64,000 bases of DNA from Luteitalea sp. (GTDB lineage Bacteria; Acidobacteriota; Vicinamibacteria; Vicinamibacterales; Vicinamibacteraceae): assembly GCA_009377605.1 (NCBI GenBank), contig WHTT01000026.1, positions 1 through 64,000 of the forward strand, in the 5' to 3' direction. The notes beneath the pieces were generated by a model. That model was not told the origin of the DNA. It was given only the letters and a program-made list of their open reading frames with translations, and did not search any database. Both the position numbers and the translations under genes were made by a program. Of this stretch, positions 11,322 through 33,960 are shown in pieces. How positions within the stretch are numbered: position 1 is the stretch's first letter; every line of letters starts with the position of its first letter.

Positions 11322-12719
11322 CTACCGGTCGGTCGCACGCAGTAACGAAACGACAGCGCGGAACTTGCCGCTCGATTCCTTGGGAATCTCAGACACGACC
11401 TCCAAGTCGATACGTAGCTCGTTTCCAGTGCGCTTGCGCAACTCGTAGAGCAATTTCTCTCGCCGTACTTCCGAAAATGCGTCGACGAGGACTAGCTTGA
11501 CGACCAGCCGGTCGAGGCTAGGCTGGACGATCTGAGCCTCGCGAATGCCGTCCAGCTGACCGAAGACGGGCGTCAGTCGGCCAAGCGGACGGCCAGACGG
11601 GGTTACCAGGACGTCATCGATCCTGCCCAAGATCTCCGCAACCATCGGGAAATTACGACCGCAGGGACAGGACCCGTCGCGAAGCACCACACGGTCCCCC
11701 AACCTGTACCTGAGCAACGGCATCGCACGATTCACGAAGGTCGTGCAAACAGCATCCCCAGGCGTTCCAGCCGGCACGGGCTCCCCGTCTGGCCCGACGA
11801 CTTCCAGAAGACCGTGTTCTGGATGGACGTGGTAGCTCCCTCTCTCACACTGCGACACGAAGTGAACCATCTCCACTGACCCGTACTGATCGATCACGTT
11901 GGTCCCGAACGCCTGCTCGATCGCTCGTCGCTGGTGCGGAAGCAAGGTCTCGGCGGTCGTAAAGACGGCACGCGGGCGAATGTCGGTGACCCCCCGGTCC
12001 AGCACGTAGACGGCAACGGCATGCAAACTCGATGGGTACCCGATGATCTCGGGCGGCTGCAGGCGCCTCAGCGCGTCGCAATACGACGCCAGGTTCTGAC
12101 GATGGAGATGGTGAGACGAGAAAAGGTAGTTTCGTTGAAAACGGTCGACCCGCCAGAACGGTGGGCGGTCCTGTCCACGTGGACAGACCACCCGACCGAA
12201 GAACGTTGCACGATAAGCTTCAGGCGTGATGCCGAACCATGCGCGGAGGCGCACCCAGAACGCGTAGTGTCGCCGGCGGGATGTGATATCGCAGAACACG
12301 GTCAACGGAGTACCGGTGGTGCCGCTCGTGCTCAACCTGATCAGCCGGTGTTCGCTGTCCTCCCCAGCGGCTACGAAGTCCGTGGGGGCTAGACGGATCG
12401 GCTCCTTCTCCAGGATCGGCAGCTTCGCCAGATCGTGGACGGATTGAACATCGGTCGGCTTCAGCCCGGTGCGCTCGCTCAGACGTCGATAGTACGGCAC
12501 CCGCTCGAACGCGTGAGCGACAATCGTGCGAAGCTGAGCATCGACATGGTCCTGGAGGTCGGACGCGGACCAGCGCTCCGTTTCTGTCAGCGCTCGCAAG
12601 AGCTCGCTGGCTTCTAGGCCCGTGCGCTCACGACGCAGGGTGTAACCCAGTGCACTCACCGCGAGGTTCTGAACCCATACGGGCGATTTGTAGTAGGCGG
12701 CCTCCAACAGATGATGCAT
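11322..12719 (-). CDS. CapK-like adenylate-forming enzyme
   Basis: The third CapK/PaaK-type enzyme of the locus, 465 residues. Motifs are LSTSGTTGTPLTVF near residue 130, DQYGSVEMVHFVSQCE, and TTFVNRAMPLLRYRLGDRV, followed by CPCGRNFP. It closes the six-gene minus-strand operon that begins with the ABC permease and is convergent with the deacetylase gene, 42 bases away. The three CapK sequences differ enough that recent duplication is unlikely, so they may activate different acids. Confidence 0.85.
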   Translation of the reverse strand: MHHLLEAAYYKSPVWVQNLAVSALGYTLRRERTGLEASELLRALTETERWSASDLQDHVDAQLRTIVAHAFERVPYYRRLSERTGLKPTDVQSVHDLAKLPILEKEPIRLAPTDFVAAGEDSEHRLIRLSTSGTTGTPLTVFCDITSRRRHYAFWVRLRAWFGITPEAYRATFFGRVVCPRGQDRPPFWRVDRFQRNYLFSSHHLHRQNLASYCDALRRLQPPEIIGYPSSLHAVAVYVLDRGVTDIRPRAVFTTAETLLPHQRRAIEQAFGTNVIDQYGSVEMVHFVSQCERGSYHVHPEHGLLEVVGPDGEPVPAGTPGDAVCTTFVNRAMPLLRYRLGDRVVLRDGSCPCGRNFPMVAEILGRIDDVLVTPSGRPLGRLTPVFGQLDGIREAQIVQPSLDRLVVKLVLVDAFSEVRREKLLYELRKRTGNELRIDLEVVSEIPKESSGKFRAVVSLLRATDR

Positions 12720-12743
12720 GACCGTGCTCGGTCCCGCGCAGCG

Positions 12744-14021
12744 TCAACGTGCGTGAAGCTTTGGAATGAGGCTCTCCAAACCGACCAAGGTTCGTTGAGT
12801 GATAGCAGACCAGGAAAGCTGTGAAACGTCGGGCCGCACCTCGCGAGGCTTTCGCACGGCATTGTCCGCCGCGCGCAGGGCACCCGCAATCTCATCGGGG
12901 TCTGGACCATTGATCACGGTTGCGAAGGGATAACTGGCCAGGTACTCGCCTGTTCCCCCAGCCGGTGTGGCGATCACGTATTTCTCGAATGTCAGCGCCA
13001 ACAAGAGCACGCCGCTTCCGTAACTCTTCCTATACGGTACCGCCACAACATCGCTCGCCGCCATCAGATCCGACGTCTCCTGGAGGGAGAGCACACCGGG
13101 CACGAAGCGGACCTGACGCTCGACACCGAGTTGATGCGCAAGCGCACGCATTCTCCAGAGCGGGTCGCTTCCAGGCGGACTCGCCTCGGGATAGCCAGCT
13201 TCCTGGCCGCAAATGATCAGCACCACGTTTTCACAGCCGGGCCGGCGGAGGGCTTCGAGCACGTTTTCAACACCCTTGTAAGGTCGCACCAACCCGTAGC
13301 TGATCGCTACCGTTCGGTCTGTTGGAATCTCGAGCTGCTGGCGTGTCGCCTCTCGTAATCGAGCGGCTGGTGGGTACATCGTGTAGATGCCGAGCTTGGA
13401 TACGACCGTCTTGTGGGCCGCCTCCGGTGCGAAGCGCTGCAATTCCTCACGCGCGGCTTCGGAGTGCACAACCAAAGCGGCTGCGTGCCGATAGACGCTT
13501 CGGTGCCGCTGCAACACCACCGCGTCTGAGTCGCCTTCGTGCGGAAGGACATTGTGCACGGTATGGATCGTTGAAATGCTCAGGGCCCGGCAGAGCTCCC
13601 AGAACCGTGTGTCGTGAGCGAAAATGATTGGCCACTGTGTCCACACCGCATCGTACCCTCGAAGCTTGAGCACGAGCACCAATTCCGCCGGAAGTATCAA
13701 ACGCTTGATCGTAGCTCGAAGCTTGCCTGCCCCCGGTCGCCGCGGCTTGGAAGAAGGCTTGAGAGCGAGCCGCCCAGCACCGGGCTGTCCGTTCATACCG
13801 TGGCGAAGTGTCCCCATCTGCTTGACCAGCGGCGAACCCAAGACTGGGAACACCCTATGTCGTCGGGGAAGAGCGATGGTCGGAAGCATCGCGCTGGCAC
13901 TACAGTAAAGGTCGACAGACACCCCGTTGCTGACCAGCCCCTCCGCAAGCTCGTGGCTGTAGCCACCAATCCCAAAGTCGCCAAGCGGATCGATGAGCGC
14001 GATTCTTGAGGATCCGGACAC
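12744..14021 (-). CDS. Glycosyltransferase, GT4-like
   Basis: I place the start at GTG 14021-14019, which overlaps the upstream gene's TAG by one base (TAGTG) and gives 425 residues beginning VSGSSRIALIDPLGDFGIGG. The frame stays open further upstream, but that stretch is antisense-quality sequence inside the GT2 gene. The GT-B fold shows in ISYGLVRPYKGVENVLEA and in the C-terminal VAVPYRKSYGSGVLLLAL, where the usual E-x7-E is weak. It probably adds a sugar during assembly of the ABC-exported glycan. Confidence 0.8.
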   Translation of the reverse strand: MSGSSRIALIDPLGDFGIGGYSHELAEGLVSNGVSVDLYCSASAMLPTIALPRRHRVFPVLGSPLVKQMGTLRHGMNGQPGAGRLALKPSSKPRRPGAGKLRATIKRLILPAELVLVLKLRGYDAVWTQWPIIFAHDTRFWELCRALSISTIHTVHNVLPHEGDSDAVVLQRHRSVYRHAAALVVHSEAAREELQRFAPEAAHKTVVSKLGIYTMYPPAARLREATRQQLEIPTDRTVAISYGLVRPYKGVENVLEALRRPGCENVVLIICGQEAGYPEASPPGSDPLWRMRALAHQLGVERQVRFVPGVLSLQETSDLMAASDVVAVPYRKSYGSGVLLLALTFEKYVIATPAGGTGEYLASYPFATVINGPDPDEIAGALRAADNAVRKPREVRPDVSQLSWSAITQRTLVGLESLIPKLHAR

Positions 14022-15127
14022 TAGAGATCTCTTTCCGCGCGCGATAGGCCCGGCTTGCCCGTATCCACCGTCGCGAGTTGGGCCAGCGACGAGCCCGCAT
14101 CTTGCCCTTCGCTTCCTCGCACGACTACACTCCGCACCATCGACTCTGCGAGCCCGCGTCGTCTCGCGTGTCGCCACACACTGCTCAGGGATTGCCCCGG
14201 GTTGAGGGCGAGATCCAGCACTCTCGAGATGATCGCACGCGTCAATCGCACACGGCTCAATGGATGACCGAGCTCTCTCAGCTTCTCTCGATGGAATGCG
14301 AAGACCTCTCGATCGCGTACCTCGAGGACAAAGCGCGCCAAGAACGCATAGTAGCGTGTGAGGTGCGTCGTGAGGCACTGCTCGCGCTCCGCCTCGGTGA
14401 GATAAACGGGACCATAGCGGACGAGATCATCGAGCCTCGCCGGCCAGTGCGGTATGAATCGTCGATACGAGGAAGTCAGAGAGTCGTTGTCGGTACGCGT
14501 GAAGCTGAGGACCTGATGCACGAAGCCGAAGTCATGATCCTGCAACACGTCCAGGCAGACTTCCTTGTCCGCATGCAGGTTTGCTTCGTTGAAGAACGCC
14601 TGCCGGCTCCGGACGGTGTTCGCACGATACAGCACTGACGTGGGCGTGCCGAACGGATAGACGCCGGCGAGAAGCTTGAGCCGGCACACCTCTCGTCCCG
14701 CAACGACCGTGCTCGGGTAAGGCAGACCATACCACCACACCTCTGCGCCGCGAAGCCCATAGGCGCCGACGATGGCCACCGATGGGTGTGCCTCAGCCAC
14801 CGCCACCATGCGCGACAGGCACTCGGGGAAGAGCCAATCATCCGCCAAGACGAACTTGCAGTACTTGCTCTCGGGCGAAATCTGGCGCGCAGCGATATTG
14901 TGATTGGCCATCACCGGTGCAAATGTCGCGTTGCTCACGACGCGGATGCGCGGGTCACGCGCCACGTACTCGTCTGCGATCTCTCGCGTGCCATCGGTGC
15001 TGCAGTTGTCGACGATTGTGTAATCCCAATTGGGATAGTCCTGAGCCAGCACGCTCTCGATACACTCTCGCAGATACGGCGCGCCGTTGTAGACCGGTGT
15101 GACCACACTCACCCGCGGATTCTTCAT
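14021..15127 (-). CDS. Glycosyltransferase family 2
   Basis: A 368-residue GT-A enzyme beginning MKNPRVSVVTPVYNGAPYL. It has IVDNCSTDGTREIA and an FVLADDWLFPECL segment near residue 92, where an Asp pair replaces the usual DXD. ATG 15127 overlaps the TGA of the upstream gene (ATGA). No membrane helices are evident, so it is probably a soluble inverting transferase of the polysaccharide pathway. A GTG at 15274 would extend it into the neighbour and is unlikely. Confidence 0.87.
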   Translation of the reverse strand: MKNPRVSVVTPVYNGAPYLRECIESVLAQDYPNWDYTIVDNCSTDGTREIADEYVARDPRIRVVSNATFAPVMANHNIAARQISPESKYCKFVLADDWLFPECLSRMVAVAEAHPSVAIVGAYGLRGAEVWWYGLPYPSTVVAGREVCRLKLLAGVYPFGTPTSVLYRANTVRSRQAFFNEANLHADKEVCLDVLQDHDFGFVHQVLSFTRTDNDSLTSSYRRFIPHWPARLDDLVRYGPVYLTEAEREQCLTTHLTRYYAFLARFVLEVRDREVFAFHREKLRELGHPLSRVRLTRAIISRVLDLALNPGQSLSSVWRHARRRGLAESMVRSVVVRGSEGQDAGSSLAQLATVDTGKPGLSRAERDL

Positions 15128-16140
15128 GGGGTTGGTCCTTCGCTTTCCCTCCGCCCCCCTACTCGTTCCAGCCAGATCTCTCGCCAGAAGGAATGGATGC
15201 TGCGCGGGCAGAAAAGACGATTCGGGTGGATGCTGAGATCCCCCACGCAGGTCGCCCCGTCGAGGACGATGCACTCCGTGGGAAGCGTCAACATCCTGCC
15301 GGTTCTCTCATCGATGATGCGCTCGGGCCGCGCGAGCACCTTGAACGTCCGGCCGCAGTAGCGCACCATTTCCGGATCGAAATACAAGCCGCGATTGCGA
15401 CGCCGTACATCGAGCGTCTCGAGGATCTCCTCCTTTGGCTTGACCCGCACCTCGTCACCAGGGCGAAGCCCGAGGACCGCAACCGGCGTCTTGGTCAGCG
15501 TGCCTCGAATGTGTGGATACCTTCGTCCGCCGCGGCGCCGCTGAATGGTGTTGAAGATAGCGATTGCGATGCCGCGCACGATGTCTCCGAGCCGCACGTT
15601 CTTCGAACGAACGTCGCGGATGTACTGGCGAACATCCCACCACTTCAAGATCCATGTGGCCCGCAGGAGCTCCGTGGCCTGGCAGGCATATCGCTCCCCC
15701 TTTGAGCCAGGATCAGCACCCGAAACGTGCACCGCGCGATGCAGCGCCTCCTCCGTGCATCCTTCAGCTCCCTGCGGAGCCGCCACCTCAAAAGGCCGCA
15801 CCGCTGGACCTGGCGCCGCGCGTTTCAGCCATGCCTCTTTCCAAAACAGCAGGCACCGCATCTGACATCCACCGTGCGCCTGCCCGTCACAGCGGAGGCC
15901 ATCGAGGTGAACCGTGTGGTACATCCGCCGCGTGCCGGTTTGCTCGATCGTGTCACACGTCTTGTCGGCCCGCTTGAACACGCGAAAACGCTGCCCGCAG
16001 AATTGCAGCATCTCCGGCAGCGCCTCGAGGCGGCCCTGCTCGTCCAGCGTCGCGAGAATCTCGTCGCGGCTTCGCACCTCGACGAGCTCGCCGGCTCGCA
16101 GGTTCAGGGCCAATGTCTTCAGCGGACGCCGCCCGGTCAT
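15124..16140 (-). CDS. Uncharacterised Cys-rich protein with tandem-duplicated domain
   Basis: A 338-residue protein I cannot assign to a characterised family. It contains two copies of one domain, near residues 10-110 and 215-325. Shared features in order are an LR-x-G-(D/E)-x-V-x-V start, EIL-x-TLD, PEM with a following (F/Y)CG, TGR, LDG-x-x-C-x-G, a further Cys, and FW-x-E-x-WL-x-R at the end. The first copy adds C-x3-C after HGG. The conserved Cys and Trp residues suggest metal binding or a structural role. It sits between the ABC export pair and two glycosyltransferases, with an ATGA overlap downstream. ATG 16140 is preferred over TTG 16143. Confidence 0.75.
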   Translation of the reverse strand: MTGRRPLKTLALNLRAGELVEVRSRDEILATLDEQGRLEALPEMLQFCGQRFRVFKRADKTCDTIEQTGTRRMYHTVHLDGLRCDGQAHGGCQMRCLLFWKEAWLKRAAPGPAVRPFEVAAPQGAEGCTEEALHRAVHVSGADPGSKGERYACQATELLRATWILKWWDVRQYIRDVRSKNVRLGDIVRGIAIAIFNTIQRRRGGRRYPHIRGTLTKTPVAVLGLRPGDEVRVKPKEEILETLDVRRRNRGLYFDPEMVRYCGRTFKVLARPERIIDERTGRMLTLPTECIVLDGATCVGDLSIHPNRLFCPRSIHSFWREIWLERVGGRRESEGPTP

Positions 16141-16185: not shown

Positions 16186-17559
16186 CTACGATGCCCGAGA
16201 GCCCGACGCTTGCTCCAGAGCGCCCGCTTCCGCCGCAGGGGCCGTCGTGTCGTCGCGGCTCGCGGGCGCCGGGGAAGAGAGGTCGGTCAGGTTCGAGTGC
16301 TTCGTGACGTGTGTGCCATTGAGCCGCCACCGTTGAGGGATGTACAGGATCCCGAAGCGAGGGCCAATCACGCGGCCGGACCCGTAGATGTCCGACACGT
16401 CGACCTCGATCACCGCACAGTGGGAGAGCGAGTCGTAGACCCTGTGATCCGGTCCTGTAATCCACAGCGACAGGTTGTACCGGTCTGGCAGCAGGTTCAG
16501 CGCGTCGATCTCCAGCTCGACGAATCCATCGCCGGCCGGAAGCCACGGGATCTCGACGCCGTGAAGCCAGGTGCTCGTGTCGGTCACGAGCGTGCCGAGC
16601 TCGGTGAGGAGCTTGAAGCCGAAACTGGGGCGGCGAACCGGCTTCTCCGCCCGATAGTGAAACCTCAACTTCAGCGCGTCGCCACACCGAATCAGGCTCT
16701 TCGGCTGTCCATCCAGTCCAAGGATCTCGAGCCGGGTGTACCTGACGTCACCCTTGCCCCGGCGGCCACCTGTCCAATCGGCCAGGTCGCGCGTGGTCTC
16801 CCGGGCTTCCGCGAACACCGACAGATAGGCGTCGATGGCTTCCTTTGCCGTACCGTCCAACCGCACGGCGCCATCCTCTATCCAAATCCCGCGCGTACAG
16901 AGGTTTTCTACGGCCGCCATGTTGTGCGACACGAAGAGCACTGTGCGTCCGCCGCTGCGCAGGTCTTGCATCGTATCCAGACACTTCTTCTGGAACGCTG
17001 CATCACCGACCGCCAATACCTCGTCCACGATCAACACGTCGGGGTCGAGGTGCGCTGCCACAGCAAAGCCGAGCCGCAGGCGCATCCCGGACGAATAGCG
17101 CTTGATAGGCGTGTCGATGAAGCGCTCGACACCGGAGAACGCCACGATCTCATCGAACTTCCTCTCGACCTCCGCCTTGCCCATGCCCAAGATCGACCCG
17201 TTCAGGTAGATGTTCTCGCGGCCTGTCAGCTCGTCGTGAAAGCCGGTCCCGACTTCGAGGAGAGCAGCGACACGCCCACGCACGGAGACACTGCCGGCTG
17301 TTGGATACGAAATTTTGGAGAGCACCTTCAACAACGTGCTCTTTCCGGCGCCGTTGCGACCGATGATGCCGACCACCTCACCCTCATTCACGCTGAAGGA
17401 CACATCCTTCAACGCCCAGATGGTTTCGATCTTGGCATTCCGGCGGGGGAACGGCTGTTTGACCATCTTGACCAGCCGATCTCTGAGCGTCGTATCCCGC
17501 TGCAGCTTGCCGATCCGGTATTGCTTGGAGAGTCCGTCAACAACGATCTGAGGTGCCAT
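16186..17559 (-). CDS. Polysaccharide ABC transporter ATP-binding protein (Wzt type)
   Basis: The 457-residue protein has an ATPase domain with Walker A GRNGAGKST near residue 67, signature YSSGMRLRLGFA near 154 and Walker B DVLIVDEVLAVGD near 173. A C-terminal domain of about 200 residues resembles the Wzt carbohydrate-binding beta-sandwich. That extension normally recognises the modified end of a finished glycan. With the adjacent permease it should export a polysaccharide across the inner membrane. The gap to the permease gene is 17 bases. Confidence 0.92.
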   Translation of the reverse strand: MAPQIVVDGLSKQYRIGKLQRDTTLRDRLVKMVKQPFPRRNAKIETIWALKDVSFSVNEGEVVGIIGRNGAGKSTLLKVLSKISYPTAGSVSVRGRVAALLEVGTGFHDELTGRENIYLNGSILGMGKAEVERKFDEIVAFSGVERFIDTPIKRYSSGMRLRLGFAVAAHLDPDVLIVDEVLAVGDAAFQKKCLDTMQDLRSGGRTVLFVSHNMAAVENLCTRGIWIEDGAVRLDGTAKEAIDAYLSVFAEARETTRDLADWTGGRRGKGDVRYTRLEILGLDGQPKSLIRCGDALKLRFHYRAEKPVRRPSFGFKLLTELGTLVTDTSTWLHGVEIPWLPAGDGFVELEIDALNLLPDRYNLSLWITGPDHRVYDSLSHCAVIEVDVSDIYGSGRVIGPRFGILYIPQRWRLNGTHVTKHSNLTDLSSPAPASRDDTTAPAAEAGALEQASGSRAS

Positions 17560-17576
17560 AATGACAATTGCACACG

Positions 17577-18350
17577 TTAAACAACATCCGCGAAGGTCCG
17601 CTCGGCCTTGCGAAAGTAGGTGAGGCCGGCGAGGAACACGGCGACGCCGATCACCAGCGACAGGCTCACGGCTGGCCAGTTCATGTCGCGCCAGGGGTTA
17701 ACGGCAAACCGGAACGCCTCGACCAGGCCGCTCATTGGATTCAAGGCAAGCAGGAAGTGAAACCGCTCAGGGACGAGGCGTACAGGGTAGATAACCGGCG
17801 TCACGAATATGCCGATTTGAACCATGAACGGGATCGCATGCTTGACGTCCCGGTATTTGACATTCAGCGCGGCCAGGAACATGCCGATCCCGAGGGTCAT
17901 GACAACCAACGGAAGCGCCAACAGGGGCCACAACAGCAGCGACCAACTGAGCGCGATCCCGTGATAGAGGAGTAGCAGGCCGAGCAAGACCGACCCGATG
18001 GATAAATCGACGACGCCGGCCAGCGCGACCGCCCCCGGGAGAATGACGCGAGGGAAGTACACCTTCTTCACCAGGCCGACGTTGCTCACCAGGCTGTTGC
18101 CGACCTGGCTCAACGTCGACGCGAAGTAGATCCAGGGCAGCAGCCCGCTGAAATAAAAGACTGTAGGCGGTACGCCGGGGTCGATTTCAAGCCTGACCAG
18201 TCTCCCGAAGAGAACGGTGAAGACCGCCATCGTGAACAGCGGCTGGATGACCGCCCAAAACACGCCCAACACGGTCTGCTTGTAGCGGACCTTCACGTCA
18301 CGCCAGGCGAGAAAGTAAAAGAGCTCGCGATACTTCCAGAGTTCTTGCAA
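17577..18350 (-). CDS. Polysaccharide ABC transporter permease (Wzm type)
   Basis: A 257-residue ABC-2 permease with six hydrophobic segments. It has the family N-terminal amphipathic stretch (WKYRELFYFLAWRDVKVRYK), SGLLPWIYFASTL and the C-terminal LNPMSGLVEAFRFAV. The start is TTG 18350, supported by AGGAG eight bases upstream. It is the first gene of the minus-strand operon 18350-11322 and pairs with the Wzt-like ATPase. A sigma-54 promoter match lies about 120 bases upstream. Confidence 0.92.
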   Translation of the reverse strand: MQELWKYRELFYFLAWRDVKVRYKQTVLGVFWAVIQPLFTMAVFTVLFGRLVRLEIDPGVPPTVFYFSGLLPWIYFASTLSQVGNSLVSNVGLVKKVYFPRVILPGAVALAGVVDLSIGSVLLGLLLLYHGIALSWSLLLWPLLALPLVVMTLGIGMFLAALNVKYRDVKHAIPFMVQIGIFVTPVIYPVRLVPERFHFLLALNPMSGLVEAFRFAVNPWRDMNWPAVSLSLVIGVAVFLAGLTYFRKAERTFADVV

Positions 18351-18472
18351 TCCGACGTCTCCTCGAGGTTTCTCAGGGACTCGCTCCCAATCGCGCCGCC
18401 TCCGTCACGTCAGCTCGGCCGGGAGGCCGATCGGAGAGTACTCGGCCAAAGGAGCAGCGACAAATGAGGATA

Positions 18473-18487
18473 GCACGCGGCGTGCCA
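18473..18487 (-). promoter_or_regulatory. Candidate sigma-54 promoter for the export operon
   Basis: On the minus strand this reads TGGCACGCCGCGTGC, preceded by C. The -24 element is perfect and the GG-N10-GC spacing is exact; only the first T of the -12 TTGC is changed to G. Transcription would start about 110 bases before the permease TTG. Confidence 0.55.
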
Positions 18488-18715
18488 GCCTTCGTCGCCC
18501 TGGTTGGCGGTTTCCAGCCAGCAGATAGCTCTCTACCAACGTACGACTTATGAACAACTCGCCCTGCGTTCTCTGAGGCCGAATGGGCGTCCCACTGATG
18601 ACAAAAGTACTCATATGAGGCGACAATTAACAGGCACATGTGTAGGACCCTAGACAACCGCCGGGGCTCTGGCCGCAAACACTCGCCGGCAGTCACGGCG
18701 TTCAGTACTGCCGTT

Positions 18716-18730
18716 TGGCACTCTGCTTGC
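18716..18730 (+). promoter_or_regulatory. Candidate sigma-54 promoter for the nucleotide-sugar operon
   Basis: The site TGGCACTCTGCTTGC matches the TGGCAC-N5-TTGC consensus at every position, with GG and GC separated by ten bases. The predicted start point is near 18742, giving a leader of about 33 bases before ATG 18775. An AAGGA ribosome-binding site lies in that leader. Confidence 0.72.
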
Positions 18731-18774
18731 GTAGAGAGGAGGGGCGAGGGGCGCCTGTCTGAGAAGGAATGTGC

Positions 18775-19803
18775 ATGAGGGTGCTAGTCACCGGACACCT
18801 CGGTTATCTCGGCGCCGTTGCGGTCCCAATCCTGCGGAGCGCTGGGCACGAGGTCGTCGGTCTCGATACAGGATTCTTCAGCGAGTGCCATTTCGGCGAC
18901 TCGAATGGTGAGATTCCATCGCTTTCGCTCGATCTTCGTGACGTCACGCCGCACCACCTCGAGGGGTTCGATGCGGTGGTTCACCTTGCCGCACTGTCGA
19001 ACGACCCGCTCGGCGATCTGAACCCGGCATGCACCTATGCCATCAATCACCAGGCCTCGGTTGGGTTGGCCCAAGCCGCAAAGGCCGCTGGTGTTGAGCG
19101 GTTCCTCTTCTCGTCCTCGTGCAGCAACTACGGCGCCGGCGGAGCCGGGTTCCTGGACGAGGAGGCGCCGCTCCGGCCGCTGACCCCGTACGGTGAGAGC
19201 AAGGTGCGCGTGGAGCGGGATGTGGCGGCGCTCGCCAGCAGCCGCTTCAGCCCGACGTTTCTGCGTAGCGCCACCGCCTACGGCGTCTCGCCCATGCTGC
19301 GCGTCGACTTGGTGGTCAACAGCCTCGTGGGCTATGCCTGTGCCACCGGCGAGGTGCTCATCAAGAGCGACGGCACACCCTGGCGCCCGCTGATCCACGT
19401 CGAGGACATCGCCCGGGCCTTCCTGGCCGTCCTCGAGGCGCCACTCGACATCGTCCACAACGCGTCGTTCAACGTGGGCCAGACGAGCGAGAATTACACA
19501 GTGCGGCAGCTGGCAGACATGGTGCAGCAAGCAGTACCTGGGAGCCGGATCGCGTTTGGCGAAGGCGCCGGGCCGGACCAGCGCAACTACCGCGTCGACT
19601 GTAGCCGCATCAGTCGCCTCCTGCCGGCGTTCAGGCCGCGCTGGACCGTTGGAGATGGTATCGCCCAGCTCCGGGACGCGTATCGCGCCCATGGGCTGAC
19701 GCGCGAGGAGCTCCTCGGCGCGAGATACCTCCGCATCTTGCGCATTCAAGAGCTCCTCCAGAACGGCCAGCTCGACACGCAACTCCGGTGGCAACGCCAA
19801 TGA
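18775..19803 (+). CDS. NAD-dependent epimerase/dehydratase (nucleotide-sugar SDR)
   Basis: The 342-residue extended SDR has the NAD-binding TGHLGYLG at the N-terminus, [15 protein letters not shown], a catalytic SSCSNYG and PYGESK (the Tyr-x3-Lys pair). Substrates of this group are nucleotide hexoses. I chose ATG 18775, not 18769, because AAGGA at 18764-18768 is correctly spaced only for the former. The stop overlaps the next start (ATGA). With the cytidylyltransferase and C-methyltransferase downstream it probably belongs to a CDP- or dTDP-branched or deoxy sugar pathway; whether it acts as a dehydratase, epimerase or reductase is not clear. Confidence 0.86.
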
Positions 19804-21041
19804 ACGCCAACCACCACGCGTGTCGCTTTTGTGGCGAGGGGTTGAAGCACAGCTTCGTCGACTTGGGCATGTCGCCGCTCTGCGAAAGCTACGTCACGGG
19901 GGATCGGCTGGACCACATGGAGCCCTTCTATCCGCTCCACGTGCTCGTGTGCCACCATTGCCTCCTCGTGCAGCTCGGCGAATACGTCGCACCTGACGAG
20001 ATCTTCTCCGAGTACGCGTATTTCTCCTCATATTCCGATAGCTGGCTCGAGCACGCGCGCTGCTACGCGCGTGCCATGACGAACCGTGTCGGCCTGGGGC
20101 CGCACAGCCTGGTCGTGGAGGTCGCCAGCAACGACGGCTATCTCTTGCAGCACTTCGTCGACCAGCAGATCCCCGTGCTCGGCATCGAGCCCGCGGCCAA
20201 CGTCGCCGCGGCAGCTGCCAGCAAAGGGGTGCGGACCGTCGTGCGCTTCTTCGGACGCCAGCTGGCAGAGGAGCTCCTCGAAGAGGGCGTCCAGGCGGAC
20301 CTCCTCGTGGGCAACAACGTCCTGGCGCACGTCCCCGACCTCAACGACTTCGTCTCGGGGCTCGCGACGTTGCTCAAGCCAACGGGGATGCTGACGCTAG
20401 AGCTCCCGCACCTGCTCCGCCTCATCGAAGGCAACCAGTTCGACACCATTTATCACGAGCATTTTTCCTATTTCTCGCTCCATGCCGTCGAGCGGGTGCT
20501 CGGTGCGCACGGGCTGGTGCTCGTCGACGTCGAGGAGCTGCCGACGCACGGCGGCTCCCTCCGTGTCTACGCCCAACGCGCGGATGGCGCCCCTTCGCCG
20601 GCGACGGCACGCGTGGCCGCGCTGCGCCGATCCGAAGAGGAGGCCGGTCTGACGAGCCTCGAGACGTACGGCGGCTTCGCGCGGCGGGTCGAGGAGACGA
20701 AGTGGCGGCTGGTCGAGTTCCTGATTGCCGCGCGGCGCTCGGGACGCAGCGTGGCCGGCTACGGCGCACCCGGCAAGGGGAACACGCTCCTGAACTATTG
20801 CGGCATTCGGACCGACCTCGTCGACTTCGTGGTCGATCGCAACCCGTACAAGCAGGGCAAGTTCTTGCCCGGCACGCACATCCCCATCCACGCGCCAGAA
20901 CGTCTCGCGGACGAGCGGCCAGACTATGTGCTGATCCTGCCCTGGAACCTCAGGGAAGAGATTGTCGAGCAGCTCGGCTACGTCCGCGCGTGGGGGGGAC
21001 GGTTCGTCGTACCCATTCCGAGCGTTGAGGTCATAAACTGA
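19800..21041 (+). CDS. Sugar C-methyltransferase-like SAM enzyme with zinc-binding N-domain
   Basis: A 413-residue protein with the three-part layout of NDP-hexose C-methyltransferases such as TylC3/NovU. An N-terminal zinc-type domain has CRFCG and VCHHC Cys pairs. A SAM-binding core has [11 protein letters not shown] and [16 protein letters not shown]. The C-terminal domain has [15 protein letters not shown] and [13 protein letters not shown]. These enzymes add a methyl branch to a 4-keto sugar nucleotide. ATG 19800 overlaps the upstream TGA; a GTG at 19788 is in frame but less likely. Confidence 0.87.
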
Positions 21042-21051
21042 TGGAGTCGAG

Positions 21052-21837
21052 ATGAAGGTCGTTCTCTTTTGTGGTGGAGAGGGATTACGGCTGCGCGAGA
21101 GCGCCGAGACGCTGCCCAAGCCGATGGCGCCCATCGGGTACCGGCCGATCTTGTGGCACGTGATGAAGTATTACGCCCACTATGGGCACAAGGAGTTCCT
21201 CCTGTGCTTGGGCTATCGCGGCGACATCATCAAGAACTATTTTCGGAACTACGACGAGACGCTCACCAACAACTTCGTGATTCGATCCGGCCAGGACATC
21301 GAGCTGCTCGGCAGGGACACCCACGACTGGAAGATCACGATGCTCGAGACAGGTGCGCGGGCGACGATCGGCCAGCGCCTGCTCGCCGCTCGACCGTACA
21401 TCGAGCCGGACGAGATGTTCCTGGCCAACTATAGCGACGGGCTCACCGATGCCCCCCTGGATCAGATGATTCGCACGCTGGAGGGCTCTGATGACACGGC
21501 GTGCTTCCTCGCGGTGCGGCCGAATCTGTCGTATCACTTCGTCCAAATGGACGAGACCGGCCACGTGCGTGACATCCGCAACGTGAGCGAGTCGGAGATG
21601 CGAATCAATGGCGGCTACTTCGTGTTCCGCCGCCAGATCTTCGACTACATCCGTCCAGGAGAAGACCTCGTGCCGGAGCCGTTCAAGCGCGTGCTCGCGG
21701 CAGGCAAGCTGATGTCGTACGAGCACAACGGCTTCTGGGCCTCGATGGATACCTTCAAGGATCGGCAGCGGCTCTGGGAGTTCTACGACCGCGGCGAGGC
21801 GCCGTGGCAGGTCTGGCGCAACGGGTCACCGGTATGA
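21052..21837 (+). CDS. rfbF: Glucose-1-phosphate cytidylyltransferase family protein (RfbF-like)
   Basis: A 261-residue nucleotidyltransferase. Its glycine-rich loop is GGEGLRLRESAETLPKPM, close to the RfbF pattern, followed by PILWHVMKYYAHYGHKEFLL, YSDGLTDAPLD and a C-terminal ASMDTFKDRQRLWE. It should make CDP-glucose (or a related NDP-sugar) from sugar-1-phosphate and CTP, feeding the SDR and C-methyltransferase upstream. The gap from the methyltransferase stop is ten bases. An obvious CDP-glucose 4,6-dehydratase is not adjacent, unless the 18775 SDR fills that role. Confidence 0.87.
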   Translation: MKVVLFCGGEGLRLRESAETLPKPMAPIGYRPILWHVMKYYAHYGHKEFLLCLGYRGDIIKNYFRNYDETLTNNFVIRSGQDIELLGRDTHDWKITMLETGARATIGQRLLAARPYIEPDEMFLANYSDGLTDAPLDQMIRTLEGSDDTACFLAVRPNLSYHFVQMDETGHVRDIRNVSESEMRINGGYFVFRRQIFDYIRPGEDLVPEPFKRVLAAGKLMSYEHNGFWASMDTFKDRQRLWEFYDRGEAPWQVWRNGSPV

Positions 21838-21886
21838 ATGCTTCAGGGACTGGAGGCAATGTCCAGCGCGCGGGAAGTGAGCCGCG

Positions 21887-22582
21887 ATGCCTCTGAGCTG
21901 GACGCCGCGCGTGACAGACCGCGCACTGCGCGTGCTCGCCATTGGCGCACATGCAGACGATATCGAGATCGGGTGTGGCGGCACCCTCCTCGCCTGGCTG
22001 AGCGACGATGTACCGCTGGACGTCACGTGGGTGGTGTGTGGTGCCAGCGGCAACCGCGAAGCGGAAGCGCGCCGGAGCGCCGATTACTTCCTGCGGCGCG
22101 CCTCTCAGCGGAAGATCATCGTGCATGGCTTCAAAGACGGGTACTTTCCGTACGACGGCGCGCGGCTCAAGGACGAGTTCGAGCGCTTGAAGGGCGACAT
22201 CGAGCCCGACCTCCTGTTCACTCACTACCGCGACGACCGGCATCAGGATCACCGCATGGTTTCGGACCTCACGTGGAACACGTTTCGCCACCACACGATC
22301 CTCGAGTACGAAGTGCCCAAGTACGACGGAGACCTCGGGGCGCCCAACGTGTTCGTGCCGTTCGCGCGCGCGGTTGCCGAAGCCAAGGCGCATGCGCTGC
22401 TGACACACTTCCCCAGCCAGGCGGTCAAGCACTGGTTCACGGCCGAGACGTTTCTTGGGCTGGCCCGGCTCCGGGGCGTCGAGGCGGCGGCATCCGCCGA
22501 GTATGCGGAGGCCTTTTATGTGCGGAAGCTGCGGCTCGAATGTCCTGAAGGGCGTCACCGGCCCGCCGTGCGCGCAGGATAG
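21887..22582 (+). CDS. PIG-L family deacetylase (LmbE-like)
   Basis: A 231-residue zinc deacetylase with GAHADDIEIGCGG near residue 20 (the AHPDD metal motif with Pro changed to Ala) and HYRDDRHQDHR near residue 110 carrying the second His cluster. Members remove acetyl groups from GlcNAc-type amino sugars. ATG 21887 has a weak GGAAGTGA upstream; GTG 21911 is an alternative. Placed between nucleotide-sugar genes and an acyl-carrier pathway, it could free an amine for re-acylation. Confidence 0.85.
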   Translation: MPLSWTPRVTDRALRVLAIGAHADDIEIGCGGTLLAWLSDDVPLDVTWVVCGASGNREAEARRSADYFLRRASQRKIIVHGFKDGYFPYDGARLKDEFERLKGDIEPDLLFTHYRDDRHQDHRMVSDLTWNTFRHHTILEYEVPKYDGDLGAPNVFVPFARAVAEAKAHALLTHFPSQAVKHWFTAETFLGLARLRGVEAAASAEYAEAFYVRKLRLECPEGRHRPAVRAG

Positions 22583-22702
22583 AGGCTGGCGAAAGCGGGT
22601 AATGGCGAAGGGACGTGGCGGGATGCTCAGAGTGCTGCAAGTGAAGGACGGCGGAGCTGACGGATCTCGACATGCGCCCGATGATGAAGGCTTGATTGTC
22701 TC

Positions 22703-23227
22703 ATGCGATTCGTGGACACTCCTCTGCCCGGCGCGTACGTGATCGAGCTCGAGCCGAGTCACGATGAGCGGGGCTTCTTTGCCCGTGCGTTTTCCGAGTG
22801 CGAGTTCGAGTCTCGCCGGCTCGTGACCCACTACCCGCAGTGCAATGTCTCGTACAGTGAGGCGGCGTTCACGTTGCGCGGCCTACACTACGCAGCGCTT
22901 CCGCATCGCGAGGAAAAGCTCGTTCGCTGCACTCGTGGCGTGATTTACGATGTCATTGTCGATCTGCGGGCCGACTCGCCCTGCCGCTTCCGGTGGTTCG
23001 CCTCCGAGCTCAGCGAGCACAACCACCGCATGCTGTACGTGCCGGCCGGTTGCGCGCACGGTTTCCTGACCCTCGCGCCGTCGACAGAGGTCTTTTACCA
23101 GATGGGGGCACACTATGTGCCAGAGGTCCAACGCGGTGTTCGGTGGAACGACCCGCGCTTCGGGATAAGCTGGCCGCATGAACCGTTGGTCATGTCGGCG
23201 CGTGACCGGGACTTCCCTGACTATTGA
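22703..23227 (+). CDS. dTDP-4-dehydrorhamnose 3,5-epimerase family protein
   Basis: A 174-residue cupin of the RmlC family. It has DERGFFARAF, a CNVSYSEAAFTLRGLHYAA segment with the catalytic-type His, and VPAGCAHGFLTL, where the second family motif is intact. It is more diverged from canonical RmlC than the 49215 product and probably epimerises the sugar made by this operon, not ordinary dTDP-rhamnose. About 120 bases without a gene precede it. The stop directly abuts the next start. Confidence 0.86.
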   Translation: MRFVDTPLPGAYVIELEPSHDERGFFARAFSECEFESRRLVTHYPQCNVSYSEAAFTLRGLHYAALPHREEKLVRCTRGVIYDVIVDLRADSPCRFRWFASELSEHNHRMLYVPAGCAHGFLTLAPSTEVFYQMGAHYVPEVQRGVRWNDPRFGISWPHEPLVMSARDRDFPDY

Positions 23228-24517
23228 ATGGACGTGAAAGCAGATCTCGACCCGTCGGAGATGTATGCGCTCATCGAGGGTCTGTACCCGTTGTGCCGCA
23301 GCATCACTGGCAATGGCGTGCGAAAGACGTTGCGCAAGGTTCAGGAGCTCCTGCCGATCGAGATCCACGAAGTTGCGTCCGGTACGCAGGTGTTCGACTG
23401 GACGGTGCCTGAAGAATGGAATATCCGAGACGCCTGGATCGCGACGCTGGATGGCCGGCGTGTCGTGGACTTCCAGGATTCGAATCTTCATGTGGTCGGA
23501 TACAGCGTGCCGGTCCGCGAGCGATTTCCCGTCGAGGAGCTGAAGCGCCACTTGCACGTGCTGGAGGATCATCCGGATTGGATACCGTACCGGACGTCCT
23601 ACTACCACCGGGACTGGGGATTCTGCTTGACCAAGTGGCAGTACGACGCGCTGGTCGAGCCGGAGTACGAGGTGTCGATCGACACGAGCTTGACGGCTGG
23701 GGCGCTGACCTACGGCGAGTTGAAGCTCCCGGGCCGTGTCTCGGACGAGATCGTGATCTCGGCGCACGTCTGCCATCCGTCCATGTGCAACGACAATCTC
23801 TCCGGGATCGCCGTTGCTACATTTCTCGGCCGCGAGCTCTCCACCTGGGACAGGCGCTTCTCCTATCGCCTGCTCTTCATCCCTGGCACCATTGGCTCGC
23901 TGACGTGGCTGGCAACTCATCGCGACGACTCCTTGAACATTCGCGGCGGCCTGAGCCTCGTGTGCTTGGGCGATGCACGTCCGTTGACCTACAAGAAGAG
24001 CCTTGCGGGCGATGGTCCCGTCGACCGCGCCGCTACCCGCGTCCTTCATGATCGCGGTCGGGAGGAGACCGTCATCGACTTCTTCCCGTTCGGCTATGAC
24101 GAGCGGCAGTTCAACGCGCCTGGGTTTCGCATCCCATTCGGATCGCTCATGCGCGGGCGCCACGACCGGTTTCCCGAGTACCACACGTCTGCCGACGATC
24201 TGAGCTTCATCTCGGCGGCGCAGCTCGACGATGCGCTCGACGCCTGTCTGGCGATGCTGTCGCGGCTCGAGACCGACGCGATGTTTCAGAATCTGGCGCC
24301 GTACGGCGAGCCGCAACTCGGACGACGCGGTGTGTACCGAGCGATGGGCGGCGGCGGCGACCCGGACGACCTCAGCACCGCCATGTTCTGGGTGCTCGCC
24401 TTGTCCGATGGGAGCTGGTCGTTGACCGATATTGCCGAGCGTGCCGAGCTGCCGTTGGCGACCATCGAGCGTGCCGCTGACGTGTTGGCGGGCCAGCAGC
24501 TTCTTCGGAAGATATAG
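23228..24517 (+). CDS. DUF4910/DUF2172 aminopeptidase-like protein
   Basis: A 429-residue protein of the DUF4910/DUF2172 type, which has an M28-like zinc peptidase fold. The hallmark HVCHPSMCNDNLSG near residue 180 holds likely metal ligands; FGSLMRGRHDRFPEYHTSAD near residue 300 carries further His and Glu candidates. The last 45 residues form a winged-helix-like segment (WSLTDIAERAEL). The family recurs in surface-polysaccharide clusters without a proven substrate. It abuts the epimerase gene directly, so a role on a sugar-linked amide or peptide is a guess from context. Confidence 0.82.
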   Translation: MDVKADLDPSEMYALIEGLYPLCRSITGNGVRKTLRKVQELLPIEIHEVASGTQVFDWTVPEEWNIRDAWIATLDGRRVVDFQDSNLHVVGYSVPVRERFPVEELKRHLHVLEDHPDWIPYRTSYYHRDWGFCLTKWQYDALVEPEYEVSIDTSLTAGALTYGELKLPGRVSDEIVISAHVCHPSMCNDNLSGIAVATFLGRELSTWDRRFSYRLLFIPGTIGSLTWLATHRDDSLNIRGGLSLVCLGDARPLTYKKSLAGDGPVDRAATRVLHDRGREETVIDFFPFGYDERQFNAPGFRIPFGSLMRGRHDRFPEYHTSADDLSFISAAQLDDALDACLAMLSRLETDAMFQNLAPYGEPQLGRRGVYRAMGGGGDPDDLSTAMFWVLALSDGSWSLTDIAERAELPLATIERAADVLAGQQLLRKI

Positions 24518-24551
24518 GGGGTGCCCCCTGGCTGGGCGTAGGATGTAGACC

Positions 24552-25652
24552 ATGGCGCAATCGATCATCACGGCACCGTCGCTGCAGGGTCTCGCCACGT
24601 GCGTGCCCGAACGCCGGTTCAACAATCTGACCGACACGACGGCCTTCGCCAAGAATGAAGTGCGCAAGGTGGTCGCCATGGCCGGCGTCACGGAGCGCCG
24701 CATCGTCGACGACCGCACGTGCAGTACGGATCTCTGCTTCGGGGCGGCCGAGGCGCTCCTGGAGGATCTGGCCTGGGAGCGAGACTCGATCGACGGGCTG
24801 ATCATGGTGACCCAGACGCCCGACTATTTCATGCCTTCGTCGAGCTGCCTGCTACACAAGCGTCTCCGGCTGGCGGAGCACTGTGCAGCGTTCGACCTCG
24901 GGCTTGGCTGTTCCGGGTACGTCTACGGCCTGTGGCTGGCCTCGATGATGTTGCAGAACGGCGGCCTGCGGCGCGTGCTGCTGCTCCATGGTGAGACGCC
25001 GACGCTCTACGCGAACGAAAGTGACCGGGCCGTGTCTCTACTCTTTGGTGACGCCGGCTCGGCGACGGCGCTCGAGCGAAGCGACGCCACCGACGGTAAT
25101 TGGTACTTCACGCTCCATACCGATGGCACTGGCTACGACGATCTGATTGTCGAAGCTGGTGGCTTTCGCGATCGCTTCTGCGCCAACGAAGAATCGCACT
25201 ACGTGAAGATGAACGGGGCCAACGTCTTCAACTTCACGATTAAGGTGATTCCCCCGCTCATCGAAGACACACTGCGGTTGGCGGATCGATCCCGGGACGA
25301 GGTCGACTACTACATCTTCCATCAGTCGAATCGCTTCATCATGAAGCACCTCATGACCAAGTGCGATCTACCGGTCGCGAAGGTGCCGATCATCTTGGAC
25401 AGCTATGGAAATCCAGGGGGGCCATCGGTTCCACTGACCATCACGCAGGGTCTGACGTTGGGCGACCGAACCGCCCCACTCTGGTTGATGCTGCTCGGCT
25501 ACGGCGTGGGCTTGTCCTGGGGCGCGGCGCTCCTCCCTTTGGAGCCGGCGACAATCGTGCGGCACGTCGAGTGGCCGTCCGCCGATACGACCTCGCCCGA
25601 ATCACAGTTGCCTCGCCGAAGCCACGCGAAGGCGGGAGCCAATACGATATGA
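24552..25652 (+). CDS. 3-oxoacyl-ACP synthase III family protein (KAS III)
   Basis: A 366-residue thiolase-fold condensing enzyme. The nucleophile Cys120 sits in LGLGCSGYVYG; the His is in YIFHQSNRFIMKH and the Asn in YGNPGGPSVPL, completing the KAS III triad. It probably condenses a short acyl starter with malonyl-ACP. In this polysaccharide operon it is more likely part of a dedicated acyl-decoration pathway than housekeeping FabH. AGGATG lies a few bases before the ATG. The stop overlaps the SDR start (ATGA). Confidence 0.88.
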   Translation: MAQSIITAPSLQGLATCVPERRFNNLTDTTAFAKNEVRKVVAMAGVTERRIVDDRTCSTDLCFGAAEALLEDLAWERDSIDGLIMVTQTPDYFMPSSSCLLHKRLRLAEHCAAFDLGLGCSGYVYGLWLASMMLQNGGLRRVLLLHGETPTLYANESDRAVSLLFGDAGSATALERSDATDGNWYFTLHTDGTGYDDLIVEAGGFRDRFCANEESHYVKMNGANVFNFTIKVIPPLIEDTLRLADRSRDEVDYYIFHQSNRFIMKHLMTKCDLPVAKVPIILDSYGNPGGPSVPLTITQGLTLGDRTAPLWLMLLGYGVGLSWGAALLPLEPATIVRHVEWPSADTTSPESQLPRRSHAKAGANTI

Positions 25653-26422
25653 CACTGGGCGCCGCCTCTTTCCTCGATTTCGGTGGGAAGTGGGTCATCA
25701 TCACGGGCGCCTCGTCTGGGATTGGCCGCGCGTCGGCCGTAGAGCTCAGCCGACACGGCGCCCGCCTGGTGCTGGTCGGACGCAATGGTCCAACGCTCGA
25801 CGACACCCGCCAATCGCTCGACGGTGACCGACACGAGACCCTTGCGCTCGATCTTTGTGACCTGTCAGCGATCGGTCCGGCGATCGCCCGTATGGCAAAG
25901 CAGGTAGGCCGGATCTACGGGCTGTGTCATGCCGCCGGGATCGTCGTGACCAGCCCGCTCAGGACGAGCACGGCTGACGTCGTGCAGTCCATGATGACAG
26001 TCAATGTCCAGGCTGGATTAGAGCTCGCGCGTCATGTGACGCGCCGCGATGTCATGGAGCCGGATGCCGGCAGTCTCCTGTTCCTGTCATCGATCTACGG
26101 CAAGGTAGGGGCCGCTGGTGAGACTGGTTACTCTGCCACCAAGGGAGCGATCGCCGCGGCGGTACGCGCCATGGCCATCGAGCTTGCCCGCCGCAGGATC
26201 CGCGTGAACGCGATCTCGCCGGGACTGGTGAGGACGCCAATGACGGACCATGCGTTGGGGGCTCTCACTAGGGAGCAGGTATCGGCTCTCGAGCAGAAGC
26301 ATCCGCTGGGCCCCGGCTCGCCCATCGATGTCGCGCGCGCCGTGGTGTTCCTGCTCGCCCCAACGACGACCTGGATTACGGGCACTGACCTGGCAGTGGA
26401 TGGAGGCTATTCCGCCCAGTAG
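25649..26422 (+). CDS. SDR-family oxidoreductase, FabG-like
   Basis: A 257-residue classical SDR with TGASSGIG near residue 20, CHAAGIV, a catalytic SSIYGK and YSATKGA (Tyr-x3-Lys), and the C-terminal DLAVDGGY of ketoreductase-type SDRs. ATG 25649 overlaps the KAS III stop, so the two are coupled and it probably reduces the beta-ketoacyl-ACP made by that enzyme. The TAG stop at 26420-26422 is part of the palindromic repeat that starts at 26419, so the extreme C-terminus was set by the repeat. Confidence 0.87.
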   Translation: MTLGAASFLDFGGKWVIITGASSGIGRASAVELSRHGARLVLVGRNGPTLDDTRQSLDGDRHETLALDLCDLSAIGPAIARMAKQVGRIYGLCHAAGIVVTSPLRTSTADVVQSMMTVNVQAGLELARHVTRRDVMEPDAGSLLFLSSIYGKVGAAGETGYSATKGAIAAAVRAMAIELARRRIRVNAISPGLVRTPMTDHALGALTREQVSALEQKHPLGPGSPIDVARAVVFLLAPTTTWITGTDLAVDGGYSAQ

Positions 26423-26477
26423 CGCAGGCCTTCAGGCCTGCCTGCCCGCCGCCGGGCAGGCCTAAAGGCCTGCGCTA
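26419..26477. repeat. GTAGCGCAGGCC palindromic repeat pair
   Basis: Two head-to-head copies of the repeat also found at 260-367, with arms GTAGCGCAGGCCTTCAGG and its near complement around a GC-rich centre. The whole unit can fold into a stem of more than 20 bp. It starts inside the SDR gene and supplies its TAG stop. No poly-T run follows, so it is not a standard intrinsic terminator. Confidence 0.88.
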
Positions 26478-26524
26478 CGACTGTCGATGGTAATAACTTT
26501 CGGGCTGAAGGAGGATCGTTACGT

Positions 26525-26818
26525 ATGAGCATGGAGCAGGACAGCTCACCAAACGCGGTGTCACAAGACGAGGCGCTCGCGTGGGTGGCAGAGATGTTCG
26601 AGGAGTCGAGGGAAAACATACAGCCGGCAACAGCTCGGGACGCCATCCCTGCCTGGGATTCACTCGGCCAGCTCGTCCTGATGGCGCAGCTCGACGAACG
26701 GTTTGGGATTCGTCTCACCGAATCCGAGTTGCCCGGGCTCCAGTCCGTTCAGGATATCCTGGACGTGTTGCATAGGCACGGTCGCCTTGCGAATGACTCC
26801 GTCCGTACGTCTGCGTGA
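26525..26818 (+). CDS. Acyl carrier protein
   Basis: A 97-residue acidic ACP/PCP-like protein. The 4'-phosphopantetheine Ser lies in WDSLGQLVLM near residue 48; the usual second helix follows (FGIRLTESELPGLQSV). A strong GAAGGAGG lies about ten bases before ATG 26525. Between KAS III/SDR and a GNAT acyltransferase, it is probably the dedicated carrier for an acyl group built in this operon. It must be activated by a phosphopantetheinyl transferase encoded elsewhere. Confidence 0.9.
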   Translation: MSMEQDSSPNAVSQDEALAWVAEMFEESRENIQPATARDAIPAWDSLGQLVLMAQLDERFGIRLTESELPGLQSVQDILDVLHRHGRLANDSVRTSA

Positions 26819-26842
26819 TACGGCTGTCGCGCCGCAATCTCA

Positions 26843-27976
26843 GTGTCCTGGTCCCTTCAACAGCTCGGCCCGTACGTGAGTCAGAGTCTGGGCGTTCCGT
26901 ACGAGCGCCTCCTCGAGGCCTTCCGCCCTGCTACCGAGGCCGATCTCCCGCGCATCCTCGAGCTGCGCCGCCTCGTGTCCGGCGGCGGTATGTGGTGGGA
27001 TGACGAGTCGTTCGTCCGGTGGCGTTATTTCAATTCACAGCTCGCCACACACCCGACGCCCTACTGGGTGTTCGAGAGGGAGAACGAGATCATCGGTGGC
27101 ATGGGGCTCGAGCCCGTCGTGCTCGTGGTCGATGGCGAGGCGCAACCGGCAACGCGCACGCTCGACATCATGGTACGTCCCGATTTCGACGGCCGCGGGT
27201 TGGGGGCCCTCATGAACCTCGTGATCTTCGAGCACTACCCGATCACGTTGGTCACGGGCAGCAACGCACGATCGCACAAGCTCATCTCGCGAATGTTCGA
27301 GCAGGCCCTCGATCTTCGCGTCTGGAAGACGCTCGTCCGCAGCCGTGACTTCATCGAGCGGCAGGCGAAGCTGGGGCCGCTTACCCGTGTGGCGGCCACG
27401 GCAGGCGACGCCCTGCTCGCGCTCGAGCGCGCGCGACGCCGCCGGCGGCCGCCGCCGTCCCTGGAGTTGCGTGAGCTGAATGAGTTCGACGATGACGTGA
27501 CGGCACTCAGTCGCGCGTCCGAGGGCCAGGGTCGGATCCTGGTGCGGCGCAGCCCCGAGTACTTGAACTGGCGCTTCGTGCGAAATCCGCGATGCCGCTA
27601 CCGTATTCACGGAGGCTTCGTGAGCGGCCGTCTCGTAGGCTATGTCGTCACCAGGCTGAATCTCGCGCGACCGAATAGTCGCAAGGAAGGAGACATTGCC
27701 GATTGGCTCGCCCTGCCCAGCATCGAGGATGGGGTCTCACCCCTTTTCTTCATCATGCACGCCGCAGTGGACCAGCTCATCCACGATGGCGCCCGACTGG
27801 TACGGTGCCTCGCGTATGGCACCACTGTTGCTCCCATGATCGAAGCGGCCGGGTTTCGCCCTCGCGCCGACGAGCGGCTACCCTTCTTCGTCCGGGCGAG
27901 CACCGGCACGCTGCACAAGCGTTTGGCATCGGGCGAAGGGTGGTTCTTGACAGGTTGCGACTTCGACGTGGAATAG
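26843..27976 (+). CDS. GNAT family acyltransferase
   Basis: A 377-residue protein starting at GTG 26843. The N-terminal half has GNAT features: FRPATEADLPRILELRRL, a beta-bulge region VVLVVDGEAQPATRTLDIMV and the acyl-CoA-type loop RPDFDGRGLGALMN. A related C-terminal half (YLNWRFVRNPRCRY) suggests a two-domain enzyme. Position directly after the ACP suggests an acyl-ACP or acyl-CoA-dependent N-acyltransferase acting on an amino sugar; this is inference. Confidence 0.8.
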   Translation: MSWSLQQLGPYVSQSLGVPYERLLEAFRPATEADLPRILELRRLVSGGGMWWDDESFVRWRYFNSQLATHPTPYWVFERENEIIGGMGLEPVVLVVDGEAQPATRTLDIMVRPDFDGRGLGALMNLVIFEHYPITLVTGSNARSHKLISRMFEQALDLRVWKTLVRSRDFIERQAKLGPLTRVAATAGDALLALERARRRRRPPPSLELRELNEFDDDVTALSRASEGQGRILVRRSPEYLNWRFVRNPRCRYRIHGGFVSGRLVGYVVTRLNLARPNSRKEGDIADWLALPSIEDGVSPLFFIMHAAVDQLIHDGARLVRCLAYGTTVAPMIEAAGFRPRADERLPFFVRASTGTLHKRLASGEGWFLTGCDFDVE

Positions 27977-28065
27977 CAGCGACACGACATTGCCTCGCAG
28001 CCACCCATGTCACTACGAAGCTTCACCGTGCTAGGATTCTGGGTCCTCAGGGAGGCGACGCCCAG

Positions 28066-29836: not shown

Positions 29837-29898
29837 CATGGTTCCGCCTCGCCAGATGGGACCTCGTCAGTCCATGAGTCTTTGTACGGACGGTCCAA

Positions 29899-30699: not shown

Positions 30700-30747
30700 C
30701 CGGATACCTATCGAGCGGTTCTGTCATTCGTCAAGCTGAGGCAGCTC

Positions 30748-31695: not shown

Positions 31696-31736
31696 AATGG
31701 AGTCGTGTCCCGTAAAGCCGACACCGAGAGGAGTAC

Positions 31737-32672: not shown

Positions 32673-32723
32673 TTCAACAGCCCGATAGCAGCCGCACTCT
32701 TTGTAACCCTTCGCACGCTCGCC

Positions 32724-33896: not shown

Positions 33897-33960
33897 TGTC
33901 GATGTGTGGTCGGACTCATGAGCACTTCTGGTTGGCTCTGCGGCTGGTGGGAGTGACGGC

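Follow-up and report, generated by a model that had tools for sequence, protein, structure and literature searches.

Within an exosortase-type exopolysaccharide locus of Luteitalea, a member of the Vicinamibacteria (Acidobacteriota), the intergenic region separating an export operon from a sugar operon carries two -24/-12 sites on opposite strands. We consider it probable that both are real, divergent sigma-54 promoters preceding these two operons, and this likelihood applies to the favoured explanation as a whole, including its predicted activator. The window, i.e. the whole 64-kb stretch of DNA that was analysed, belongs to contig C26 of a 6.79-Mb genome. This genome encodes a single intact copy of rpoN, which scores 454 bits (cut-off 277) and comprises all three sigma-54 Pfam domains.

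Two sigma-54 sites face the export and sugar operons

The first-pass annotation of this DNA had described a perfect TGGCAC-N5-TTGC on the plus strand and a site with one mismatch on the minus strand. Rereading of the sequence and a pattern scan confirmed both descriptions. The plus site (18716-18730, TGGCACTCTGCTTGC) has no mismatch, while the minus site (18473-18487, TGGCACGCCGCGTGC) has exact GG-N10-GC spacing and a G replacing the first T of TTGC in the -12 element. The two sites are separated by 228 bp within the intergenic region 18351-18768, which extends from the TTG start of an ABC permease gene on the minus strand to the ATG of an epimerase gene at 18769 (alternatively 18775). As had also been claimed, each site faces the first gene of an operon. 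The plus site, with a predicted start at about 18742, ends about 40 bp upstream of the epimerase start, which is immediately preceded by a GAAGG ribosome-binding site. The minus site, with a predicted start at about 18461, lies about 120 bp upstream of the permease start. No known RNA family was found in the intergenic region.

On the minus strand, the operon begins with an ABC-2 polysaccharide export permease of the Wzm/KpsM type (17577-18350), followed by an export ATPase with a Wzt C-terminal domain (16186-17559) and, at 11322-16113, by two glycosyltransferases, an unassigned gene at 15124 and an AMP-dependent CoA ligase-like gene. On the plus strand, an NAD-dependent sugar epimerase/dehydratase (18769-19803) is followed at 19788-35183 by the rest of the sugar operon or operons, encoding a C-methyltransferase, a nucleotidylyltransferase, a PIG-L deacetylase, RmlC, a FabH-like protein, an SDR and glycosyltransferases. 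Wzm/Wzt export and glycosyltransferases are thus encoded on one side, sugar-nucleotide and decoration enzymes on the other. The minus operon spans about 7 kb, and the plus operon no more than 16 kb, so that the earlier proposal of a whole 35-kb set controlled from a 424-base region was overstated. Internal gaps of up to about 300 bp make further promoters within the sugar operon possible.

The left end of the window starts in an exosortase/EpsI gene, whose EpsI domain (80-1036) scores 42.8 bits, at its cut-off, and also carries an O-ligase-like gene. In the core operon of a congener, TIGR03013 scores 458 bits, above its cut-off of 393; matches to TIGR03015 and TIGR03027 are both below their cut-offs. 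With an exosortase/EpsI, a PEP-CTERM-associated ATPase, an export protein and an EpsB-type sugar transferase, the locus belongs to the exosortase-type exopolysaccharide loci, an assignment made at the level of the type and not of a subtype.

Conservation of the sites

Genome-wide, 21 perfect matches to TGGCAC-N5-TTGC were counted, compared to 22 for the reversed control pattern, and many of them fall within genes. The motif string alone is therefore no evidence of a promoter, and cross-species conservation constitutes the stronger test. Within the window, 10 matches with at most one mismatch were found where 4.3 are expected; at the genome rate, about 424 bp should contain some 0.001 perfect matches and 0.03 matches with at most one mismatch. 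The only other perfect match in the window (27817-27831) lies within a coding region and is probably due to chance.

We compared the locus with that of Luteitalea sp. Dino_bin50, one genome of the same genus. The two loci are syntenic, the epimerase ortholog is at 79%, and the intergenic regions share 64% identity. In the congener, the plus site reads TGGCACCCGGCTTGC within the conserved block ACTGCCGTTTGGCAC.C.GCTTGCGTA: its elements are constant and its spacer has changed, which is the classical pattern. The minus site reads TGGCACGCCGCATGC, and the gap from site to site is again 228 bp. No other 15-bp block of the intergenic region is as well conserved as the two sites, which keep 10/10 (plus) and 9/10 (minus) consensus columns and all 8 GG/GC positions; only 0.7% of all possible placements of a site pair equal this conservation. 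A scan of the contig for intergenic sites with intact GG-N10-GC, at most two mismatches and a gene within 400 bp returned four sites. Three of them could be compared with the congener, namely the plus and minus sites and a third at 38944, and all three are conserved. That both sites are chance matches without function, as the count equal to the reversed control might suggest, is highly improbable given that these sites, the third one and a fourth before the core operon are all conserved across species.

A different possibility is that the plus site alone acts as a sigma-54 promoter, whereas the minus site represents an operator or a chance palindrome and the export operon is read from another promoter. 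The minus site is indeed nearly palindromic (GCACGC-G-GCGTGC) and its mismatch is in the -12 element, so that an operator is conceivable. Full conservation of the spacer, as observed at the minus site, is unusual for sigma-54, and no comparable conserved sigma-54 site was found upstream of permease homologs in the class outside the genus. We nevertheless regard this possibility as unlikely: GG-N10-GC is intact in both species, the sole consensus column that differs is the one already mismatched (GTGC/ATGC), the congener breaks the palindrome yet keeps the -24/-12 elements, and the orientation and distance of the site suit the permease gene.

The promoter reading of both sites had earlier been made to depend on conservation of the motif upstream of orthologous operons. 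This conservation holds for both sites in the congener; for the minus site it does not reach beyond the genus, the divergent arrangement being seen in the window genome and Dino_bin50 only. A genome of another family (G051) has an epimerase ortholog (56%, locus L148) preceded by a sigma-54 site, TGGCTGGTTCCTTGC, and most of the distant epimerase homologs have none. A set of 80 named epimerase homologs, mostly from other phyla, was set aside as a wider test of the site pair, because hardly any of them has the divergent permease or the sites.

A receiverless activator heads the core operon

The first-pass annotation had pointed to PrsK/PrsR-type regulators, which the domain scores do not support. 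With the PrsK model (TIGR02916, cut-off 300 bits), the window genome reaches at best 99.9 bits and the congener 102 bits, and the best PrsR score (TIGR02915) is 428.8 bits for a cut-off of 502.6. PrsT is present although PrsK and PrsR remain below their cut-offs: a PrsT-type TPR lipoprotein is encoded at 45118-47412 on the minus strand (TIGR02917, 341.2 bits, cut-off 312.2). At the right edge of the window (C26:63540-66519), an NtrC-type response regulator and a histidine kinase, which are not PrsR and PrsK by score, are encoded next to an ABC transporter.

In the congener, the core operon lies 30 kb to the left of the divergent region, and its first gene encodes an enhancer-binding protein of 356 residues with an AAA+ sigma-54 interaction domain (Sigma54_activat) and a GSFTGA loop, lacking a receiver. 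Its ortholog in the window genome, 91% identical, heads the same core operon on another contig (C57:31528-32595). As C57 breaks off within a ligase gene whose counterpart in the congener lies before the exosortase, C57 and C26 are most likely neighbouring contigs, an adjacency deduced from synteny rather than from an observed join. Upstream of the activator gene, both species share the conserved sigma-54 site TGGCGAC[TC]TTTTTGC, with a dyad 136 bp further upstream.

Orthologs of the activator occur in 73 of the 193 genomes of the class, and a polysaccharide export gene adjoins the activator in 21 of 30 loci checked. TGGC-N7-TTGC, nearly always followed by A, is present in 24 of 63 activator upstream regions, compared to about 0.9 expected (0.31 and 0.56 in two batches). 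The C-terminal part of the protein is strongly conserved across the class; neither a Pfam DNA-binding domain nor, by comparison with solved structures, a clear homolog of this domain was recognised. PspF is likewise an AAA+ sigma-54 activator without a receiver. The activator described here differs from PspF in its association with exopolysaccharide genes and in having a C-terminal domain of its own, and its score against the PspF family is 265 bits for a cut-off of 443.55.

We regard this receiverless protein as the most likely activator and as a better candidate than PrsK/PrsR, and we predict that it binds in the intergenic region of the window. Since the genome encodes many other sigma-54 activators, another one could be responsible. 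In particular, the two promoters might be under ordinary two-component activation, for instance by the NtrC-type pair at C26:63540-66519, which is on the same contig as the promoters in a genome rich in NtrC-type regulators. We give this alternative a small share of the probability: the pair lies 45 kb away, past genes that have no relation to exopolysaccharide. The receiverless activator, in contrast, is encoded by the first gene of the core operon and frequently has export genes as neighbours. Moreover, the dyad found upstream of activator genes recurs at the epimerase promoter of G051.

A candidate shared enhancer

A motif learned from the activator upstream regions is the palindrome G-N2-GAC-WWWW-GTC-N2-C, similar to AGACTTTAGTCT; enumeration of exact dyads on a few sequences had been uninformative. 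Dyads with a score of at least 11 are found in 20 of the 24 activator regions having a sigma-54 site. They number 26 in the 4,185 positions within 180 bp upstream of this site, compared to 2 in 11,157 positions elsewhere. They cluster in a range of about -108 to -162, with a second cluster precisely at -28. The latter position, just upstream of the -24 element, was observed in L194, L197, L204, L221, L228 and L238 (among activator loci L178-L238) and suggests self-repression or an activator site close to the promoter. When the dyad-plus-promoter pattern was searched over 193 genomes, about twice the control count was obtained, and most matches are probably due to chance. This search led to the epimerase promoter of G051, where two dyads lie upstream, a strong one at -124 and another at -102.

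The best dyad match between the two promoters of the window is GATGACAAAAGTACTC (18597-18612). It is weak, with a score of 9.4 compared to a 95th percentile of 9.2 per 228 bp, and its counterpart in the congener, GCTGACAAAAGTGCTA, scores 7.3. Its centre lies 124 bp upstream of the -12 G of the plus site and 131 bp upstream of that of the minus site. The match overlaps a sigma-70-like sequence, ATGACA-N18-GACAAT (18598-18627), the dyad bases being those of the first hexamer; the second hexamer is conserved. The position and conservation of 18597-18612 speak for a shared enhancer, but these bases may just as well belong to a sigma-70 promoter.

The operons might indeed be read mainly by sigma-70. 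In that case, 18598-18627 would be a housekeeping promoter from which the sugar operon is read, and the role of the sigma-54 sites would be conditional or minor. One such sequence was found where 0.1 is expected, and the congener has CTGACA-N18-GATAAT at the same place. This explanation would leave unaccounted for the conservation of two -24/-12 blocks and their recurrence before activator genes and the G051 epimerase, and the conserved AAAAGT adjoining TGACA fits a dyad better than a spacer. We judge sigma-70 to be a doubtful main reader of these operons and favour the two sigma-54 promoters.

Proposed mechanism and comparison with known systems

In the mechanism that we propose, RNA polymerase-sigma-54 would wait in a closed state at each of the two -24/-12 elements until the DNA is melted by an AAA+ activator, which binds further upstream and reaches the promoters through a loop. 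The plus promoter would then drive the sugar-nucleotide and decoration genes and the minus promoter the Wzm/Wzt export operon. The activator would be the receiverless protein of the core operon, placed about 30 kb to the left by synteny and apparently under its own sigma-54 promoter and AGACTTTAGTCT-like dyad; the degenerate dyad of the window, placed midway, could act on both promoters. That the cell uses these promoters, that the activator binds to the dyad and in the window, and that the enhancer is shared are all predictions drawn from sequence. On a larger scale, we tentatively suggest, at somewhat less than even odds, a regulon of exosortase/exopolysaccharide genes across the Vicinamibacteria in which a receiverless, self-activating activator acting on the AGACTTTAGTCT dyad replaces PrsK/PrsR, and in which the single midway dyad of the window switches the export and sugar operons together.

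Sigma-54 sites and an activator motif were described by Haft and colleagues before PEP-CTERM genes (PMC1569441); in a phylogenetic profile, this sigma-54 motif matches PrsK, PrsR and PrsT, and it was found in Proteobacteria only (PMC1569441). The Luteitalea locus shares with these systems PrsT, the exosortase locus and long intergenic regions in which sigma-54 sites lie downstream of an activator motif, here a candidate one. It differs by a likely activator without a receiver, by the absence of PrsK and a PrsR score below cut-off, and by its host, an acidobacterium. Its promoters precede export and sugar operons instead of single PEP-CTERM genes, and its dyad is AGACTTTAGTCT-like, whereas motif 1 of the PrsK/PrsR systems ends in TTTACA (PMC1569441). 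Inspected by eye for this end only of the 17-base motif, the sequence between the two gene starts contains neither TTTACA nor its complement. The arrangement thus likely works as Prs-controlled systems do without being one of them, as a variant in which both the activator and the enhancer are likely to be different.

An RpoN-dependent promoter with TGGCAC at -24 was mapped for pepA in the exosortase/floc system of Aquincola tertiaricarbonis (PMC9850573). That case is experimental and concerns a single PEP-CTERM gene of a proteobacterium, whereas the window sites are known from their sequence. Exopolysaccharide genes behind sigma-54 promoters are common to the window and to a paper on general sigma-54 control of the cell exterior, where they comprise transport and synthesis genes (PMC3162934); the text of that paper mentions neither Acidobacteria nor Solibacter or Koribacter.

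The literature that we found on sigma-54 control of exosortase/exopolysaccharide systems covers Proteobacteria only, and our data point to a second solution, with another activator and another enhancer, in the Acidobacteriota, which are major soil bacteria with little regulatory genetics. If this is true, the dyad and the -24/-12 pair would offer a sequence handle on the exopolysaccharide regulon of the whole class, and the activator and its dyad would form a defined protein-DNA pair, amenable to in vitro tests that require no genetic system.

A third sigma-54 site and variable features of the locus

The third conserved site (38944-38958, plus strand, TGGCCCGTGCCTTGC) reads TGGCGCGTGCTTTGC at the orthologous place in the congener, within a long conserved block. 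It precedes a single gene (39004-40185, plus strand) encoding a secreted, weakly polysaccharide-lyase-like protein (PF14099 below cut-off; ortholog at 71.6%). No clear dyad accompanies this site: at 38827, some 122 bp upstream, a conserved block matches the dyad only poorly. The first-pass annotation had envisaged a single switch. Since the core operon and the gene at 39004 have conserved sigma-54 sites of their own, co-control would mean a multi-promoter regulon.

Within the genus, the decoration genes of the sugar operon are subject to turnover. An RmlC gene, a peptidase-like gene and three further genes, two of them with sulfotransferase-like sequence (22703-24517 and 28285-30699), have no ortholog in the congener locus. 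Runs of GGTCAGGGGTCAGG / GGCCAGTGGTCAGTGG-like repeats are inserted in the leader of the congener sugar operon (L032, 1276-1480), and similar repeats are also present upstream of the activator gene in the window genome (L171).
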